Source of the DNA: a virus
Reading direction: 5' to 3' (one strand)
DNA: 64,000 nt
IMG/VR virus record: IMGVR_UViG_3300022937_000009
Span: 1-64,000 of that record
Numbering within the stretch: position 1 is the first letter of the stretch; each line of letters starts with the position of its first letter. The notes under the pieces are model-generated. The model searched no databases. It had not been told where the DNA came from and saw only the letters and a program-made list of their open reading frames with translations. Shown here piece after piece: positions 22,929 through 56,279 of the stretch. The translations under genes and the position numbers were made by a program.

Positions 22929-24016
22929 AAAAAATATTAATCACTGGAATGAACAAAGCTCAGTGTACTGAAGACTTTTTTCTAAGACAGCAATTACAAG
23001 TAGTACCTTCTCAATATGCAGTATTACGTTGTCTTAGAGAAATGGGATATGAAGTTGAGCAAAGAGAAGTAGCATTAGGCGAAGATATTTCACACTATGA
23101 TGAAGTAATCTTTTATATGCATAGTCCACAATCTTTCTGTCAAAATTTATATTCTGGATGTTACGCACTATCTCAAAGACCAGATGCTATTCTTGCATTT
23201 GACGATTGGCAGGTTGATCAGATTTATGGTGGTATTCAAGGATTTCGTGGAAACCTTGATGAACCAGAAGACAAAGCATTTAGACAATATCTTTTAGATC
23301 TTCAATGTACACAATATGATATTAACACTCTGAAAAAATACAAAGACAATTTTGTAGCAGCATGTGATATTATGCTAAATAAAGAAAACAGATTGTTAAT
23401 TTCTGCATTTGATCTTGGTGATTTAAGTTTGCTCAATCTCGGTTGGAATCCTGATAAAATATATCGTTTCAATCCTAACCCTTATCACTATAATCGTACT
23501 CCAGATAATGATTTTCTTTCTGGTGTATCAACACTTTTTGGTGGTGGAGTAGAAGTAAAAGATAAAAAATTAGAATGGAACTTTGCTTCGTTAGTACAAA
23601 AGAAAACTCGAAAATGGTTGAAACTTCAAAACATTCAAGAGTGGCCAATGAATATCTATGGTGCAAAGCGCGGTGAAGAAAAATCAGAAAGACTTACTGA
23701 AGACCAAATGTGTAAAGTATATGCAGAACAATGGGGATGTTTAATGCCTGGATATTTCCACTCAGGATCTGGTTGGTGGAGAGCAAGGCCTTTACAGGTT
23801 GCTGATGCAGGAAGTATTCTTATTGGTGATCCTAAAGAATTATTTGTTTACTATCAGGATGAATACTTATCTACACGTATTGCTGAAGATATTGAAGCTA
23901 TGAATGTGAAACAATTACAAGAATTTGCTCAAGGTCAACGCGATGCACTATATAAGCATCATCCTCTAGATAAAGAAAAAACAAGAAGTGAATTTGAAAT
24001 AGTATTAAACGCATGA
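22925..24016 (+). CDS. GT-B-like protein, candidate glycosyltransferase
   Basis: 363 residues; no family is certain. The N-terminus (ILITGMN, QYAVLRCLREMGYEVEQREV, HYDEVIFYMHSPQSF) looks like a Rossmann domain. The second half has GWWRARPLQVADAGSILIGDPKE followed by an all-helical end, as in GT-B enzymes where the Arg/Glu-region binds the nucleotide sugar. Its length and layout resemble T4 beta-glucosyltransferase (351 residues), which modifies 5hmC in DNA; that is an impression by eye. It is packed between the epimerase and the mutase with four-base overlaps. Confidence 0.45.
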   Translation: MKKILITGMNKAQCTEDFFLRQQLQVVPSQYAVLRCLREMGYEVEQREVALGEDISHYDEVIFYMHSPQSFCQNLYSGCYALSQRPDAILAFDDWQVDQIYGGIQGFRGNLDEPEDKAFRQYLLDLQCTQYDINTLKKYKDNFVAACDIMLNKENRLLISAFDLGDLSLLNLGWNPDKIYRFNPNPYHYNRTPDNDFLSGVSTLFGGGVEVKDKKLEWNFASLVQKKTRKWLKLQNIQEWPMNIYGAKRGEEKSERLTEDQMCKVYAEQWGCLMPGYFHSGSGWWRARPLQVADAGSILIGDPKELFVYYQDEYLSTRIAEDIEAMNVKQLQEFAQGQRDALYKHHPLDKEKTRSEFEIVLNA

Positions 24017-25020
24017 AAAATTATTTAGTAGTTGGCGCAGGATTTGCGGGTGCAGTTCACGCAAGAGAACTTGCAAATGCTGGTCATAAAGTACATGTTA
24101 TTGATTTAAGAAATCATATTGCAGGTAATGCTTATGATTATACTGATGAAAATGGTATTCGTGTACACAAATATGGTCCACACTTATTTCATACAGATAA
24201 TGAAAAAGTTGTAAACTGGTTAATGCAATATGGTGAATGGGTAGAATATAAGCATAAAGTAAAAGCCTTATTAAATGATGGACAATATGTTACTTTACCT
24301 GTAAATAAAGAAACTAAAGAAATTGTTGGTGAAGAAAATGTGCTTGATATTTTCTTTAGACCTTATACAAGAAAAATGTGGGGTAAAGAGCTCGATGAAT
24401 TAAATCCTGGTATTATTGCAAGAGTACCTATTCGTGATGATCTAAACGAATACTATTTTCCGAAAGATAAATATCAGTATATGCCAAAAGATGGCTATAC
24501 AAAACTTTTTGAAAATATTTTAAATCATGAGAATATAACAGTGCAACTTTCAACAGAGTTTAACAAGAGTATGGAAGATGAATACGATCACGTATTTAAT
24601 TCTATGCCAATTGATGTATATTATGATTATTGCTTTGGAGAATTACCTTACAGATCACTCAAGTTTCATACAATGAGTATTCCACAAACAAGAGTGCTTC
24701 CTACCGCAACAGTCAATTTTACACACGATGGACCATATACTCGAGTAACAGAATGGAAAAACATTCCAGAACATGGTAAAAACGACTTAACCACTACAGT
24801 AACTTATGAGGAACCATGTGATTATAAAGACAATAACATGGAAAGATATTATCCCATAAATGATGTAGATGGTATTAATCGTGAAAGATACAAGCAATAT
24901 CGAGATATCGAAAACTCTAAAGTCACTTTTATAGGAAGATGCGGAATGTATGTCTATTTAGATATGCACCAAGTCATAAATTCATCATTAGTATCAGTGA
25001 GTAAATTTTTAAATGATTAA
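24013..25020 (+). CDS. glf: UDP-galactopyranose mutase
   Basis: 335 residues. FAD-binding GAGFAGA near the start, HVIDLRNHIAGNAYD, KYGPHLFHT with the flavin-loop His, PYTRKMWGKELDEL, and RVPIRDD, ending FIGRCGMYVYLDMHQ: the typical Glf pattern. It converts UDP-galactopyranose to UDP-galactofuranose. With the epimerase it gives a route from UDP-glucose to UDP-Galf. It overlaps the methyltransferase gene by eight bases. Confidence 0.9.
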   Translation: MKNYLVVGAGFAGAVHARELANAGHKVHVIDLRNHIAGNAYDYTDENGIRVHKYGPHLFHTDNEKVVNWLMQYGEWVEYKHKVKALLNDGQYVTLPVNKETKEIVGEENVLDIFFRPYTRKMWGKELDELNPGIIARVPIRDDLNEYYFPKDKYQYMPKDGYTKLFENILNHENITVQLSTEFNKSMEDEYDHVFNSMPIDVYYDYCFGELPYRSLKFHTMSIPQTRVLPTATVNFTHDGPYTRVTEWKNIPEHGKNDLTTTVTYEEPCDYKDNNMERYYPINDVDGINRERYKQYRDIENSKVTFIGRCGMYVYLDMHQVINSSLVSVSKFLND

Positions 25021-49349: not shown

Positions 49350-50201
49350 ATGGCAGTAATGAGAATACAATCAGATGGAGATCCTTATCCAGCAAGAGCA
49401 GGAGTTACTGTATTAACTAATGATGGTACAACTGCTCGCGGTGGGTTTGGTGGTGGTAATACTATTTCAGATCAAACTCACGATTTTCAGTTTGAATATA
49501 GAGGTGGACAAAATACGTCTAATCCTCATTTGACAACATTAGGAGCAATGGGTATCGCTAATAATGGTGTTGTATTATTTAATCCAAGTGCTGCACCTGG
49601 ACCTTTACCAGGATCACAAATTCAACCACCTCAAGGTTTTACATATAATGCAGTATTTAATGAATCTGCGTATGGTGTAGATGCATGTGGTGGACATCCT
49701 GAGGAAAATGGTGAGTATCATTATCACTCAGGTTCATTTTTAATCAACGGTTGGAATAACGCAAAATTTTATGGTTCAAATTCTTATTATAATGATAGCA
49801 ATTATTCAGGAGATAATTTTAGACATCCTGACGGACACAGTAAAATATTAGGTTGGTGTTTTGATGGCTATCCTTTATATGGACCATACAGTTATGCGGA
49901 TCCTGCAGATAATACAAGTTTAGTAAGACAAATGTTAAGTAGTTGGAGAACTCTTGCAACAGAAGCGACGGGTAGAGGATTTACATATGCTCAAGAACCG
50001 GCAGGAAGTTTTATAAACGATTATGAGTTTGTAGATGGATTAGGAGATCTTGACGAATATAATGGAAGATACCTTGCGTCAACTCCTGATTATCCAACTG
50101 GAACTTACGCGTATTTTTTAACTTTTGCAAATGGTGATTTTAATACACCGGCTTTCCCATATATTTTTGGGTTAAGTACAAGAGAACAACGCGGTGCATA
50201 A
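49350..50201 (+). CDS. YHYH-domain protein
   Basis: 283 residues. GGHPEENGEYHYHSG and the later GWCFDGYPLYGPYSY define the YHYH domain, found in secreted proteins of marine bacteria. The His/Cys spacing could bind metal; the activity is unknown. It sits between the baseplate genes and tail fibres and follows gp7 by one base, so it is probably a tail decoration or receptor-interacting protein. Confidence 0.75.
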   Translation: MAVMRIQSDGDPYPARAGVTVLTNDGTTARGGFGGGNTISDQTHDFQFEYRGGQNTSNPHLTTLGAMGIANNGVVLFNPSAAPGPLPGSQIQPPQGFTYNAVFNESAYGVDACGGHPEENGEYHYHSGSFLINGWNNAKFYGSNSYYNDSNYSGDNFRHPDGHSKILGWCFDGYPLYGPYSYADPADNTSLVRQMLSSWRTLATEATGRGFTYAQEPAGSFINDYEFVDGLGDLDEYNGRYLASTPDYPTGTYAYFLTFANGDFNTPAFPYIFGLSTREQRGA

Positions 50202-50239: not shown

Positions 50240-51919
50240 ATGGCCAAGCAAATAATTAATATCGGAGCATCAGCAAACGATGGATCAGGAGATCCAATAC
50301 GTAATGCATTCGATAAAACAAACGATAACTTTAATGAATTATATTTCGCATTAGGTAGCGCTACTAACGCTACTTCAATGTTTAATGCTCAAGGAGAACT
50401 TGATTTTCCAGGAGCCTCTCATAAAATATCATTCTATTATGATACAATAGCAGATCTTGAAGCTGTTGATGCGAGTACATATCATGGTGCAATAGGACAC
50501 GCACATGATACTGGAAAACTTTATTATGCTCACAACGGAGCATGGCAACAACTTGCGAATTATTCTGACATTAGTGGAATTTCGGTAACCTCAGCATTTA
50601 CAACAATATCAGTTTCTGGCCAAAATGATATTGAAGCAGATTCAGCTGATGATACTCTAACATTCATTGCGGGTACTGGAATTCAAATTACAACTAGTGA
50701 TACTAATGATTCTATTACTATTACTGCAACAGGCGGTGGTGGTAGTGGATCTTCAAGTTTTGTAGGTTTAAGTGATACACCAGGAACATTAGGTTCAGCT
50801 CTTCAATACGCAAGAGTAAATTCAGCAGGTAATGCTTTAGAATTTGCTACATTACCAACAATGTATTCTAATTCTGACGTTGACGCGCATCTAAATCAAA
50901 GTAATCCAACATCAGGCTATGTACTTTCTTGGAATGGTTCAGATTACGCTTGGGTAGCACAGTCAGGTGGTAGTGGTGGTTCGGTTGCTATGACTGACAT
51001 TACTGATACGACAATTACAAATCCACAAAGTGGAGATATTCTAAGTTATTTCCCAAATGATAGTACATGGAGAAACGTAACATTCACTCCATCTTTCGCA
51101 GATATAGACCAACAACCAGCAGATTCAGCTGATAAAGCGTTATTTGAAAATAGTTTCCGTAATGCAGCAACAGTATTAACAGTATCAGCAAATGGTACAT
51201 CCGCATATCGTTTTGACCAATATGGAACAACAGACAATCCAACTATTTACGTAAAAGCTGGTACAACTGTTGGATTTGATATGTCTTTCGATTCAGGTGG
51301 TACACACCCGCTTAAAATTCAAACAAGCGGTGGAGCAGATTATAATACAGGATTAGTTGCTTTACAAGAAGGTAACATATACGAAGAAGCTAATGCTCAA
51401 GGCACTTATTCAGGAACATTATTCTGGAAGATACCAGCATCAATTTCTGGCAATTACAAATATCAATGTGCATCACATTCGGGAATGACAGGAACAATCG
51501 TTGTTGAAGCTGCCGCAGGTGGTGGAGGCGGAGGCGGAAGTTCTGCTACACGTAATACAGAAACAGAAACAACGGCTTCAATTGCAGACGGTGCAGCAGG
51601 TAATGTTGCTTTTGCAGATATCGGTAAATCATATGTTTTATATGAAGTTACAACTGATAAAGCAGCATGGGTACGTATCTATGATGAAGTTGCATCAAGA
51701 ACAGCTGATGCAAGTAGAACACAAGGTCAAGATCCGGCTGAAGGATCTGGTGTAATCGCAGAATTTATTACAGGTGGTGCAACCACTGTTAAAGTTACAC
51801 CAGGCGTATTTGGCTGGGTAGGAAACAGTGAATCAACTGTTCCAGTTTCAGTAACAAATTTAAGTGGTTCGACAGGAACCGTACAAGTAGATATAACAGC
51901 ATTAACATTAGAGACTTAA
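50240..51919 (+). CDS. Tail-fibre protein with cupredoxin-like domain
   Basis: 559 residues. The start INIGASANDGSGDPIRNAFDKTNDNFNELY is the usual marine T4-like fibre attachment domain; an HN-rich region and the stalk follow. A segment from about 312 to 424 looks like a cupredoxin: His356 (GTHPLKI), then Cys410, His413 and Met416 in CASHSGM, the full type 1 copper ligand set. A final beta domain follows. Copper binding or electron transfer is inferred only from these residues. Confidence 0.7.
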   Translation: MAKQIINIGASANDGSGDPIRNAFDKTNDNFNELYFALGSATNATSMFNAQGELDFPGASHKISFYYDTIADLEAVDASTYHGAIGHAHDTGKLYYAHNGAWQQLANYSDISGISVTSAFTTISVSGQNDIEADSADDTLTFIAGTGIQITTSDTNDSITITATGGGGSGSSSFVGLSDTPGTLGSALQYARVNSAGNALEFATLPTMYSNSDVDAHLNQSNPTSGYVLSWNGSDYAWVAQSGGSGGSVAMTDITDTTITNPQSGDILSYFPNDSTWRNVTFTPSFADIDQQPADSADKALFENSFRNAATVLTVSANGTSAYRFDQYGTTDNPTIYVKAGTTVGFDMSFDSGGTHPLKIQTSGGADYNTGLVALQEGNIYEEANAQGTYSGTLFWKIPASISGNYKYQCASHSGMTGTIVVEAAAGGGGGGGSSATRNTETETTASIADGAAGNVAFADIGKSYVLYEVTTDKAAWVRIYDEVASRTADASRTQGQDPAEGSGVIAEFITGGATTVKVTPGVFGWVGNSESTVPVSVTNLSGSTGTVQVDITALTLET

Positions 51920-51922
51920 TAG

Positions 51923-54352
51923 ATGGCAATCGACGAGTCATTAAAATTTTTACCACCAGAAGAACTTTATAGAGTTATTCCTCATGAAGCAGATTCTAAT
52001 GGTAGAAAAAATCACTCAATCCGTTTAAGCGAAGGAACCGACTGCGACGCTTTTTGTGAAGATTTAAATTCACAAGGATTTGAATGTATTGCTAATCCTA
52101 GCATGTTTCATAGAATATGTGTATTTAAATTTACCGAAGAAGAAGCGAATACTATTTCAGAAAGAGATGATGTTGTTAGTGTAAATGTCGAACAAGATAA
52201 AGTACTTTATAGTTATAACCCACAAAATCGTAACGGTAAAACGACTGTTGAAACATACTTCGACACTTCTTATCCTTCAAGTACTTTTGATGGAACTGAT
52301 TTTATTCCAGCTAAATTTTTCTGGGATACAAATACAACAGCACCAACACCAAATGGAAGGCCTTTAGGTTTCTTTAATAACGCTCAGTTTGGTGGTGGAA
52401 CTCAAGAAGATACTTACGCATCAACAAATACGACTATATCTCATAATTTTGATGGAAGCACTGTTGATATTGTTATTGTAGACCCTAGTGGTGGTGCTCT
52501 TGAACAGCCATCGTGGGCTCAAGCACATCCAGATTTCAAAGACGCATCTAATAATTTTAGATTTGTTGCTGTTGATTGGGGTGATTATGATGCGGGAGTA
52601 ACCAACGTAAGAAATAATCAAGTCACAAATGGTTGGACAGACTTTGGTACACACGCACTTGGATGTGCATCAGTTGCAGCAGGTACTTATTGTGGTTGGG
52701 CAAAAAACGCAAACCTTTATTATGCTGATGCGACTTATGATAATGAATTATCAATTTATGCAGCAATTCTTGCATGGCATCAAGCAAAACCAGTTAACCC
52801 AGATACAGGTAAACGAAACGCTACTATCGTAAACAATTCTTGGGGTTACGCTGATGATGTAAGAGCTGAGAATATTATACCTATCGAAGAAATTTCTTCT
52901 TTTAACGCATTTGATGATGATGGAAATCAAACAACAGTAACTAGACCAGGTGGTGGTTGGGGAAGTGATTACTCAGATTTCATAGACAACGGATTCAATG
53001 TTGTTAACACGACTGGTGCTAATGGAACTGATAAGTGGGGAATCGCAACTTTTCGTTCAAACTCTTCTAGGGATACTGTTTGGGATGCTGTTTTAAATTT
53101 CTTTAATGGTGTTAACGGGATTTATATGTTCTTCGCATCTGGTAATTCTCCAGTTGTTTTTGCAAGAACAGACCAGCCTCAGTATAATAATCAAATCTTT
53201 ATGGATTCAAATTATTTTTACTATGACTTAAACGAATCCACTGGCAGTAATAAAGTTACTGCTACTGAAAACACTTATGCTCCTGTAACTGGTACAGAAT
53301 ATACTCATAGGTGTGAGTATCTCGGTAATCGCTATTCATTTTATGTTTCATCATATCAGTTTAGTACAACAAACCCATTAATGGAGCATTATCCCGCAAG
53401 AGGTCCAGCGATTGATGCAATAGGACAAGGAAGAGGTTCATGGTGTGCGACATCTGTTTATAATGTTAAAACTGACTCAAATGGATTTGAGTGGGGAACA
53501 TTTTCTGGAACTTCAGCGGCATGTCCAAATGTGGTTGGTGCAGTCGCATTAATGCTTGATCATTATTATCATGGAGAAGGCGGAGCATCTTGGCCAAGTA
53601 TCGCAGAATTAAGAACCATGATAAGAAGTACTTTCTCTCAACACCCTCTTCCATTAGTAGAAGATTTAGGAAAAGATCGTAGTGGTAATGCAGTAAGTAA
53701 AACAAGTTTTCCTGCAGCGGGCACAGAAATGTGGGGACATAGATTACAAGGTAGCTACCTTGTAAACCAAACTATGACTCAACGCACACAGTTAACAGAA
53801 AGAGTACAAGATAGAAACAGTTATAACGATAACTGGGCAGTTTCTGTAGGAGCTAACGGAACTACGGCTTATACCTTTACAGGAACTGTTGGAGCAGAAA
53901 CATTTAGTAGTACTAATGATCCAATATTAGTTATAAGAAAAGGTGATACACTCACTTTTAGTATTAATGCAACAGGACATCCTATGTATATTAAACAATA
54001 CAAAGGAAGTGTAGTACAAGGTTCTGCTGATGCTTATAATACTGGTGTAACAAATAATGGAACTCAATCAGGATTTATGATTTGGGCCACCGACACTGTA
54101 CCTGCAGGGCTCTATTATTATATTTGTTCGAACCACGCTGCAATGGCTAATTATATTGTTATATTAAGTGAAACTGAATATTATTATTCAGGCAGTGGAA
54201 TTATGGGCACAACTCCAAACACAAGAGTTTGGTTACCTTGGTCAATAAGAATGGGAACAGCAGGAAAAACAAAGCAACCAAGAAGTATAACTTATACTTC
54301 TAGACCAGCAACAGGACAAACATATCCTAGGCGGAAGATTAGAGTAGCTTAG
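51923..54352 (+). CDS. Subtilisin-like (S8) protease with C-terminal cupredoxin-like domain
   Basis: 809 residues. The S8 triad is Asp187 (VDIVIVDPSG), His244 (FGTHALG) and Ser531 (SGTSAACPN), with oxyanion Asn408 (ASGN). The first 100 residues (HSIRLSEGTDCDAFCEDL and EEEANTISERDDVVSVN) resemble an I9-type inhibitor prodomain, so it may activate by self-cleavage. From about 640 a cupredoxin-like domain has His686, Cys735, His738 and Met741. It starts three bases after the fibre gene. It may cleave host surface proteins or mature tail fibres; which, is not known. Confidence 0.85.
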   Translation: MAIDESLKFLPPEELYRVIPHEADSNGRKNHSIRLSEGTDCDAFCEDLNSQGFECIANPSMFHRICVFKFTEEEANTISERDDVVSVNVEQDKVLYSYNPQNRNGKTTVETYFDTSYPSSTFDGTDFIPAKFFWDTNTTAPTPNGRPLGFFNNAQFGGGTQEDTYASTNTTISHNFDGSTVDIVIVDPSGGALEQPSWAQAHPDFKDASNNFRFVAVDWGDYDAGVTNVRNNQVTNGWTDFGTHALGCASVAAGTYCGWAKNANLYYADATYDNELSIYAAILAWHQAKPVNPDTGKRNATIVNNSWGYADDVRAENIIPIEEISSFNAFDDDGNQTTVTRPGGGWGSDYSDFIDNGFNVVNTTGANGTDKWGIATFRSNSSRDTVWDAVLNFFNGVNGIYMFFASGNSPVVFARTDQPQYNNQIFMDSNYFYYDLNESTGSNKVTATENTYAPVTGTEYTHRCEYLGNRYSFYVSSYQFSTTNPLMEHYPARGPAIDAIGQGRGSWCATSVYNVKTDSNGFEWGTFSGTSAACPNVVGAVALMLDHYYHGEGGASWPSIAELRTMIRSTFSQHPLPLVEDLGKDRSGNAVSKTSFPAAGTEMWGHRLQGSYLVNQTMTQRTQLTERVQDRNSYNDNWAVSVGANGTTAYTFTGTVGAETFSSTNDPILVIRKGDTLTFSINATGHPMYIKQYKGSVVQGSADAYNTGVTNNGTQSGFMIWATDTVPAGLYYYICSNHAAMANYIVILSETEYYYSGSGIMGTTPNTRVWLPWSIRMGTAGKTKQPRSITYTSRPATGQTYPRRKIRVA

Positions 54353-54404: not shown

Positions 54405-56279
54405 ATGCCAGAAGTATTATCTAACAATTTTAAAACGGATATCACAAGATTATTCATTGATGATATTAATAACAATGATTATTTCTTGTTTGTTTCCGCT
54501 ATCGATTCTTTCGATCCAGTAGATTCTAAATTTTCTAAAAATGAATTTTTAGAAAGAACTTTGTTTGGCAAAAAAGTTGAAATCAATGATATTCATTTTA
54601 TGATTAGATATCATCCTTGGCAGGTTGGTCAAGTGTATGTTGAATATGATGATACAGTAGATTTAACAGATCAAAAATTCTATGCTGTTGTTGGACCTAA
54701 CGATAATGAAACTGGTGATTATCGCGTTTATAAATGTTTGAATAATAATAATGGCGCAACAGTAACATCACCTCCTAATTATAATCCAACAACTACAAAC
54801 CAAGTTTATGAAACAGCTGATGGGTACGTATGGAAATATATGTATGTTATTAGTGAATTACAATTCGAAGCTTATAATGCTTTAGGTTATGTACCAATTA
54901 TTGGAACTTTTAATACTAATCCAACTTTAGGTCAAGGATCAAAATTATCTGATATTGTTGTTACTAATCCATTAGACAATTCTGGATATGTTAAAGAAAC
55001 GGGTGGATTAATTTCATCTCCATTTTATGATGGCACTATGTTAGTAGATCCTTTTTCAACTTGGAGTCCTATTACAGGTTATTACGTTGGACAAAATATT
55101 TACACAGTAAATCCAAATGGCGTTGCAAATTTATTTGAAATACAATATTATTTTTATAATCAAAATACTGGTAACGCTGAAATACGAGTAGGTAATGAAA
55201 AAATTTATGGTAAAACACGAGGTGCAATAACTTTTGCAACTCAAGCAAATCCAGTTGTATGTACTTCAGTAGAACACGGGTTTGTAAATGGCCAATCAAT
55301 TACATTTAGTAATGTCGTAGGAATGACAGAATTAAATGGAAATAACTATTACGTACAAGTTTTATCTGCAGATACATTTGCCTTAAAGGCAGATAGAGGA
55401 TTAAGTACAAATGTAGACGGTACTGGATTTACTGCATATTCTAGTGGTGGAACATATATAACAGAAAGAGATGCAGTTGCTTCAGGTGTTGTTGGAAATG
55501 CTTCATTTAGTATTTTCCCAAGAGTAGATATTAAAGGAAATGGAAGAGGAGCAGTTGGTATTCCACAAATTCAAAATGGACAAATCACTTCAATCACTGT
55601 ATTAAATCAAGGTAGTGGTTATGATAATATTACAGCAGAAGTTGTTGATCCAGCTTATGATTTTGATCCTGAAGATACAACAACTACTGACGTAAGAGCA
55701 GTCATAAGACCTCGTTTATCACCAGATGGTGGACATACATATAACGTATTAGAAGAATTTAGATGTAAGCATTTTAGTTTTTATGCTTATATTTCTGCCG
55801 ATGATAATACTAGAATTGGAGATACAAATACTTATACAGGTGTTGGAATTGTAAGATCACCAAGTTTTCATACATCAACACCAACAATTTTTGATAATAG
55901 AATTGCCATCACAACAGACGATATAGATAGATTAACCGCAAATACAACAGTAACTCAATTAAATTCTGATAATGAAGTAGTTTTTTCTGCTAAAGTTCAT
56001 GAAGTAGATGAAAGCGCGAATACGGCTTATTTAGCAGAATATATGGGTCCTTATGAAAGTAATCCAGACTCAGGAAATGGAGATACCTCTTTAGATTTAA
56101 CATTACAACTTAGAAACGATACAGGTCAAACAATTACTATAAATAGTCCAGTAGCATCTAATGTTGTATTTTCAAACTATGTTCAAAGAACAGGTGAGGT
56201 TTATTTCATGGAAGATTTCTTCCCATTAGCAAGAACAGACCTATCAAGAGAAGAATTTAAGTTTGTATTGGAATTTTAA
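54405..56279 (+). CDS. 8: Baseplate wedge gp8
   Basis: 624 residues (T4 gp8 has 334, so about 290 residues are extra). The gp8 core is TRLFIDDINNNDYFLFVSAIDSF, INDIHFMIRYHPWQ, DYRVYKCLNNNNGA and TADGYVWKYMYVI. The extra part includes the insertion at about 260-340. It forms part of the outer wedge with gp7 and gp10. Confidence 0.85.
   Translation: MPEVLSNNFKTDITRLFIDDINNNDYFLFVSAIDSFDPVDSKFSKNEFLERTLFGKKVEINDIHFMIRYHPWQVGQVYVEYDDTVDLTDQKFYAVVGPNDNETGDYRVYKCLNNNNGATVTSPPNYNPTTTNQVYETADGYVWKYMYVISELQFEAYNALGYVPIIGTFNTNPTLGQGSKLSDIVVTNPLDNSGYVKETGGLISSPFYDGTMLVDPFSTWSPITGYYVGQNIYTVNPNGVANLFEIQYYFYNQNTGNAEIRVGNEKIYGKTRGAITFATQANPVVCTSVEHGFVNGQSITFSNVVGMTELNGNNYYVQVLSADTFALKADRGLSTNVDGTGFTAYSSGGTYITERDAVASGVVGNASFSIFPRVDIKGNGRGAVGIPQIQNGQITSITVLNQGSGYDNITAEVVDPAYDFDPEDTTTTDVRAVIRPRLSPDGGHTYNVLEEFRCKHFSFYAYISADDNTRIGDTNTYTGVGIVRSPSFHTSTPTIFDNRIAITTDDIDRLTANTTVTQLNSDNEVVFSAKVHEVDESANTAYLAEYMGPYESNPDSGNGDTSLDLTLQLRNDTGQTITINSPVASNVVFSNYVQRTGEVYFMEDFFPLARTDLSREEFKFVLEF

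Follow-up and report, generated by a model that had tools for sequence, protein, structure and literature searches.

A predicted subtilisin-family protease joined to a putative copper-binding cupredoxin in the tail gene block of a T4-like relative of cyanophages

What is a gene for a subtilisin-family (S8) protease doing in the tail gene block of a phage, and what might a copper-protein fold on the same chain contribute? The gene (Table 1) lies in positions 1 to 64,000 of the IMG/VR virus record IMGVR_UViG_3300022937_000009, the whole 64,000-nucleotide stretch analysed here and referred to as the window, where a preliminary description had predicted an active S8 protease with a prodomain-like start and a fused cupredoxin-like domain. 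The open reading frame runs exactly as described (51923-54352, plus strand; 809 aa, ATG to TAG) and is the only S8 match in the 101,436-base virus record that contains the window. A chance open reading frame was rejected, as intact homologues with 20-83% identity occur in many contigs, and the 809-aa protein is a real and probably working protease of an already recorded kind.

The catalytic domain was recognized by PF00082 (Peptidase_S8), which matches residues 202-571 with an E-value of 5e-13 and 49.4 bits (curated cut-off, 21.8), and the whole protein matches PHROG 15006 (‘tail fiber protein’; 1.8e-44) and PHROG 9158 (4e-39). In the family alignments, D187, H244, N408, and S531, the four residues singled out in the preliminary description, occupy the correct S8 columns, with H244 as the counterpart of subtilisin His64 in a local motif that reads THALGCAS and not HGTHVAG. 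A phmmer search of the PDB with the single 809-aa protein gave no match, and the PDB matches to the protease were obtained with the family profile. An AlphaFold model built on 39 family members (mean pLDDT, 73; pTM, 0.65) has a subtilisin fold, with VIA-align Z-scores of 26-27.5 to proteinase K, aqualysin I, and PCSK9, and a disordered spacer at residues 575-634 between the S8 and cupredoxin domains. Many of the protease structural alignments also use model residues 773-780, past the cupredoxin, a tentative hint that the cupredoxin may be inserted ahead of the last element of the protease domain. The Pfam match, the aligned catalytic residues, and the modelled fold all favor the earlier prediction of an active S8 protease.

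The start of the chain had been likened to an I9 prodomain, and the likeness held. Modelled residues 29-89 follow the beta-alpha-beta-beta-alpha-beta order of the subtilisin prodomain, this N-terminal block is conserved in relatives, and the Foldseek matches to the whole model include EpiP and unprocessed pro-subtilisin E. The best Pfam match of the isolated N-terminal segment is Inhibitor_I9 (E-value 0.029), and because its 15.5 bits lie below the curated cut-off of 21.2 the domain is named I9-like only. The model has a weak linker around residues 92-110, and residue 107 aligns with residue 1 of mature aqualysin I, proteinase K, and keratinase, which points to a likely autoprocessing region at residues 92-106, where the prodomain would be cleaved. 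Compared with L006, one of the nearest relatives, residues 96-169 (52208-52429) are 99% identical with almost no silent changes and the cupredoxin is 66% identical, a contrast that is a sign of recent recombination within the gene. Between the same two copies, dN/dS is about 0.39 in the S8 domain and 0.44 in the cupredoxin, which indicates purifying selection on both domains.

Table 1. Features of the protease gene and its neighbors in the window, with predicted functional sites
Feature	Coordinates	Strand	Basis or remark
YHYH-domain protein, same block	49350..50201	+	PF14240, 6.7e-37
Upstream fibre, gp9/10-like N-terminus and own cupredoxin (Pfam 334-423; THPLK...CASHSGM)	50240..51919	+	Pfam
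Whole gene: I9-like prodomain, S8 subtilase, and cupredoxin	51923..54352	+	809 aa
Prodomain, residues about 27-91	52001..52195	+	AlphaFold secondary structure, pLDDT 74-89
Low-confidence linker, residues about 92-106	52196..52240	+	Predicted autoprocessing region
S8 catalytic domain, residues about 107-575	52241..53647	+	Profile match 170-578
Catalytic Asp187	52481..52483	+	Glu in about half of the family
Catalytic His244	52652..52654	+	Family alignments
Oxyanion-hole Asn408	53144..53146	+	Family alignments
Catalytic Ser531, in GTSAACP	53513..53515	+	Family alignments
Cupredoxin domain, residues 635-750	53825..54172	+	Fold, family profile, ligands
Predicted Cu ligand His686	53978..53980	+	Conservation
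Predicted Cu ligand loop C735-S-N-H738-A-A-M741 (C-x2-H-x2-M)	54125..54145	+	Conservation
C-terminal motif RPATGQTYPR	54302..54331	+	Terminal or near-terminal in many relatives
gp8-like baseplate wedge gene, downstream	54405..56279	+	phrog_438, E 1.7e-38

The phage is a marine, T4-like relative of the cyanophages, and the match of its DNA polymerase (46% to S-RIM12) indicates this kinship and not the host. A megablast of the tail block against phages gave no match and there is therefore no close isolate, and psbA was not found in the 101-kb partial record. The tail block reads gp25, gp6, wedge, YHYH, fibre, protease, gp8-like, large wedge, and S74 fibre, which bears out the position given earlier, between a fibre gene and gp8. 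The arrangement recurs across the family, with the protease starting 0-13 nt past the preceding gene in 79 of the 82 measurable distinct copies; in most loci that preceding gene is a match to the fibre of the window, and a gp8-like gene comes next in 31 distinct copies.

The preliminary description had also treated the enzyme as a possible tail protease of the virion, and here a relative offers partial support. S-SCSM1 gp144, about 25% identical to the window protein, has an I9-like prodomain, an S8 domain with all of the catalytic residues, and a long tail gene directly upstream in a tail block, though it differs in its length of 1411 aa and in the lectin-type domains that replace the cupredoxin. 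Its record carries the note ‘(virion protein)’. By mass spectrometry, 45 proteins were found in CsCl-purified S-SCSM1 particles, according to PMC9602691. Because the virion labels of the record are selective and agree with the D-Ala-D-Ala carboxypeptidase named as detected in that paper, the label on gp144 was read as mass-spectrometry evidence. Presence in virions is thus supported for a distant relative only, and the window protein, encoded in the tail block, is a putative virion component.

Our preferred reading, to which we assign a probability of about 0.48, is a tail-borne, autoprocessed protease that cuts a host surface protein and carries a copper-loaded cupredoxin as an accessory module. 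A subtilase associated with the tail or baseplate would be synthesised as a zymogen, with the I9-like prodomain helping folding and blocking the active site, and once the prodomain had been removed in cis near residues 92-106, the particle would carry an active enzyme, held in place by the product of the upstream fibre gene and by the C-terminal regions of the protease itself. Cleavage of a host surface protein when the phage meets a cell would then aid adsorption or penetration. The cupredoxin would be a shared module of marine phage tails that holds one type-1 copper ion and acts in an accessory role, probably as a stable spacer or binding unit. The domain layout, the conservation of catalytic and ligand residues, the place of the gene, and the wide spread of the family are observed, whereas in this scheme we infer autoprocessing, location in this virion, activity, copper loading, the host-surface substrate, and the timing. 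Against this reading, the S-SCSM1 relative is distant in identity and lacks the cupredoxin; about half of the family, the nearest relative among them, has Glu in place of Asp, which might reduce or change activity; and the tight coupling to the fibre gene suits fibre maturation just as well.

An assembly or maturation protease, which would cut the neighboring fibre or another tail protein in the infected cell and then be kept in the particle or lost, is the main alternative, and we consider it less likely, though plausible. The short distance from the upstream gene, usually a fibre, resembles that of fibre-processing helper genes, and a prodomain would hold back the enzyme until assembly. The fibre partners, however, are highly diverse, and a lectin-type domain on a relative labelled as a virion protein suits extracellular action.

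The cupredoxin-like domain reported at the C-terminal side was borne out by a profile match and by its fold. The full-length model has a beta-sandwich at residues 637-748 (pLDDT 85-97), and the domain modelled alone is a Greek-key beta sandwich (pLDDT 96) with structural matches to AcoP and, at Z-scores of 10-11.5, to rusticyanin, nitrite reductase, and laccase domains; the best match (Z 11.5) covers 96 residues at 2.3 Å. A family profile of the domain found plastocyanin first (E-value 9e-7), followed by rusticyanin, amicyanin, and pseudoazurin. The single cupredoxin sequence gave chance matches only against the PDB and reached 16 bits with Pfam Copper-bind, under the cut-off of 21.2, and the assignment consequently rests on fold, profile, and ligands. 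The window domain shares the His-Cys-His-Met ligand set and the fold with plastocyanin, amicyanin, rusticyanin, and the N-terminal domain of three-domain nitrite reductase, and the C-x2-H-x2-M spacing of its loop is that of amicyanin. It departs from these type-1 copper proteins in being fused to a phage tail protease and in having no evident electron-transfer partner.

The domain is present in at least 155 phage records, nearly all of them marine cyanophages. In an alignment of 35 copies that share 24-65% identity with the copy in the window, no column is invariant except H53, P54, C102, H105, and M108 (domain numbering), which are the four type-1 copper ligands and the proline that follows the first histidine. 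All four ligands are kept in the Kyanoviridae ACG-2014d, P-SSM2, and P-TIM68, in the Autographiviridae P-SCSP2 and P-GSP1, and in an actinobacterial phage. As the ligands are nearly the sole invariant columns and are kept in these named phages, copper binding is strongly predicted. It is improbable that the protease reading is right and the cupredoxin has given up copper binding to serve as an Ig-like adhesin or spacer; the domain does occur in many tail proteins, as other structural modules do, and a few family copies have lost ligands (SSDM, QSSM, and YSAM), but an alignment whose invariant columns amount to a copper site, with ligands kept even when the domain is permuted, speaks against such a decay.

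The placement of the cupredoxin varies widely amongst the S8 relatives. It is C-terminal in the window, ACG-2014e, S-CAM4, S-H9-1, and AG-345-P14, is embedded in the protease, flanked by the His and Ser parts, in others (e.g., L034, L035, and L039), belongs to an N-terminal array in L053, occurs in several copies in L076 and L079, and is absent in other relatives. In S-CAM1 (L012:6227-8479), L045:953-3211, and L055:7407-9659, the C-x2-H-x2-M strand precedes the HP strand with all ligands kept, and this apparently circularly permuted cupredoxin is inserted into the stretch that separates the catalytic Glu from the catalytic His. The family tree requires 11 changes of architecture, and because the two domains have been joined repeatedly, the pattern suggests that the pairing of S8 and cupredoxin matters, though the cupredoxin may instead be a general module, since it is also common in other tail proteins. 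A further proposal, that the copper site senses the redox state or copper of the cell surface and gates the tail protease at adsorption, with one branch using a Ser-His-Glu triad, is speculative and is given slight odds.

Relatives of the S8 protein were found in at least 571 viral contigs in a scan of IMG/VR, and a genome scan with the family profile found seven loci in metagenome-assembled bins, which are probably phage contigs. Conservation in the aligned copies is strict for His (100/100) and Ser (96/96) and nearly so for the oxyanion Asn (98/100). At the catalytic Asp site, 48 of the 99 resolved copies carry D and 51 carry E when near-copies are counted; the figures become 33 rows with D and 31 with E once copies more than 97% identical are set aside. 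The nearest relatives (L006 and L007; 83% identical, from several samples) carry E at the position of the window's D. A tree built by a quick method has two main groups, a cyanophage type with only Asp and the mostly Glu group to which the window belongs, and well-supported branches force at least three Asp/Glu changes. In a control alignment of bacterial S8 proteins the site is Asp in 28 and Glu in two of 30 resolved copies, and of these two Glu copies, L118 carries the motif of the phage family, sits in a bin with phage-like loci, and is probably phage-derived. On these counts and this control, a Ser-His-Glu subtilase site is unusual and concentrated in the phage group. Loss of catalytic residues in relatives was considered and rejected, the exception being the Asp/Glu change; absence from virions combined with a lost triad, which would have spoken against the protease, was not what was found.

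Whether the subtilase fold contributes no more than structure or binding to the tail turns on the same alignment. The prevalence of Glu, as close to the window as L006, and the unusual motif around His in the window's clade would fit such a non-catalytic relative, but Ser and His stay invariant and the oxyanion Asn nearly so among copies that are 20-30% identical, no residue other than D or E occurs at the Asp site, the window copy has D, and the prodomain is retained, making this highly doubtful. Least probable is a protease that works inside the host, in takeover or lysis, and off the tail: a late-block position is by itself no proof of a particle component and subtilases elsewhere are commonly soluble, but the gene sits in a baseplate/fibre block, its product has fused tail-type domains, and the S-SCSM1 relative is labelled a virion protein.

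The combination of protease, fibre, and copper site had been described as unusual, which does not stand, as the same domain pair occurs in several annotated cyanophages, the Synechococcus phages ACG-2014e, S-CAM4, and S-H9-1 among them, and S8 relatives are widespread. The PHROG 9158/15006 cyanophage proteins (ACG-2014e AAJ58_gp173, S-CAM4 gp074, S-H9-1 gp171, and S-CAM1 SXBG_00005) share with the window a prodomain, an S8 domain, in some a cupredoxin, and a place in the tail block directly after a fibre-like gene, whereas identity is only 23-27% over the full alignment, they fall in another clade of the tree, and the window protein has extra sequence beyond the cupredoxin. Amongst them, ACG-2014e, S-CAM4, and S-H9-1 belong to the all-Asp clade, and S-CAM1 has Glu and the permuted, inserted cupredoxin. 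Proteinase K and aqualysin I (S8A, I9 prodomain) resemble the window protein in fold (Z about 27; rmsd 2.6-2.9 Å), catalytic residues, and prodomain order, and the window protein differs from them in being viral, in its cupredoxin and large loop insertions, and in lacking HGTHVAG.

As S8 proteins of cyanophage tails, including ones with the same architecture, are annotated in public records, the gene is not of a new kind, and it draws interest mainly for its copper site and for the exchange of Asp and Glu, not for the presence of a protease. In the open-licence literature, no paper was found on a cyanophage subtilisin or serine protease, a copper domain in phage tails, or a Glu triad, which is no proof of novelty. 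S8 relatives are common in ocean phages and little studied. The phage tail enzymes known are mostly sugar- or wall-cutting, and a widespread tail protease of ocean phages would, if true, bring proteolysis into host entry as well. In the open-licence literature, a blue-copper site conserved in tail proteins seems undescribed and, if true, would mean that the particles carry copper. The alternation of Asp and Glu in a subtilase site that is otherwise intact offers a natural experiment on the strictness of the classical triad.

Several minor observations concern the surrounding genes. Tail proteins of marine phages repeatedly contain YHYH domains, and the YHYH gene of the window lies beside two cupredoxin-bearing tail genes. 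The gp8-like wedge has a stretch that matches the FCCH domain of ubiquitin-activating enzyme E1 (PF16190, 1.1e-10), and a UDP-galactopyranose mutase gene lies at 24013-25020 (PF03275, 9.5e-55). The S-BM3 ‘peptidase S8’ (L018:6122-14068, 2,648 aa) was excluded from the relatives of the protease because Pfam gives no S8 match, only YHYH and Ig; a region of this protein resembles the cupredoxin part of PHROG 9158. Many of the proteases end in RPxSGxxYPR, as does a separate 93-aa protein in two loci (L015:5398-5676 and L072:3097-3375), and a role as a docking peptide is possible. In three contigs (L086, L093, and L098), the tail block has a tandem pair of different S8 genes with a YHYH gene shortly downstream.
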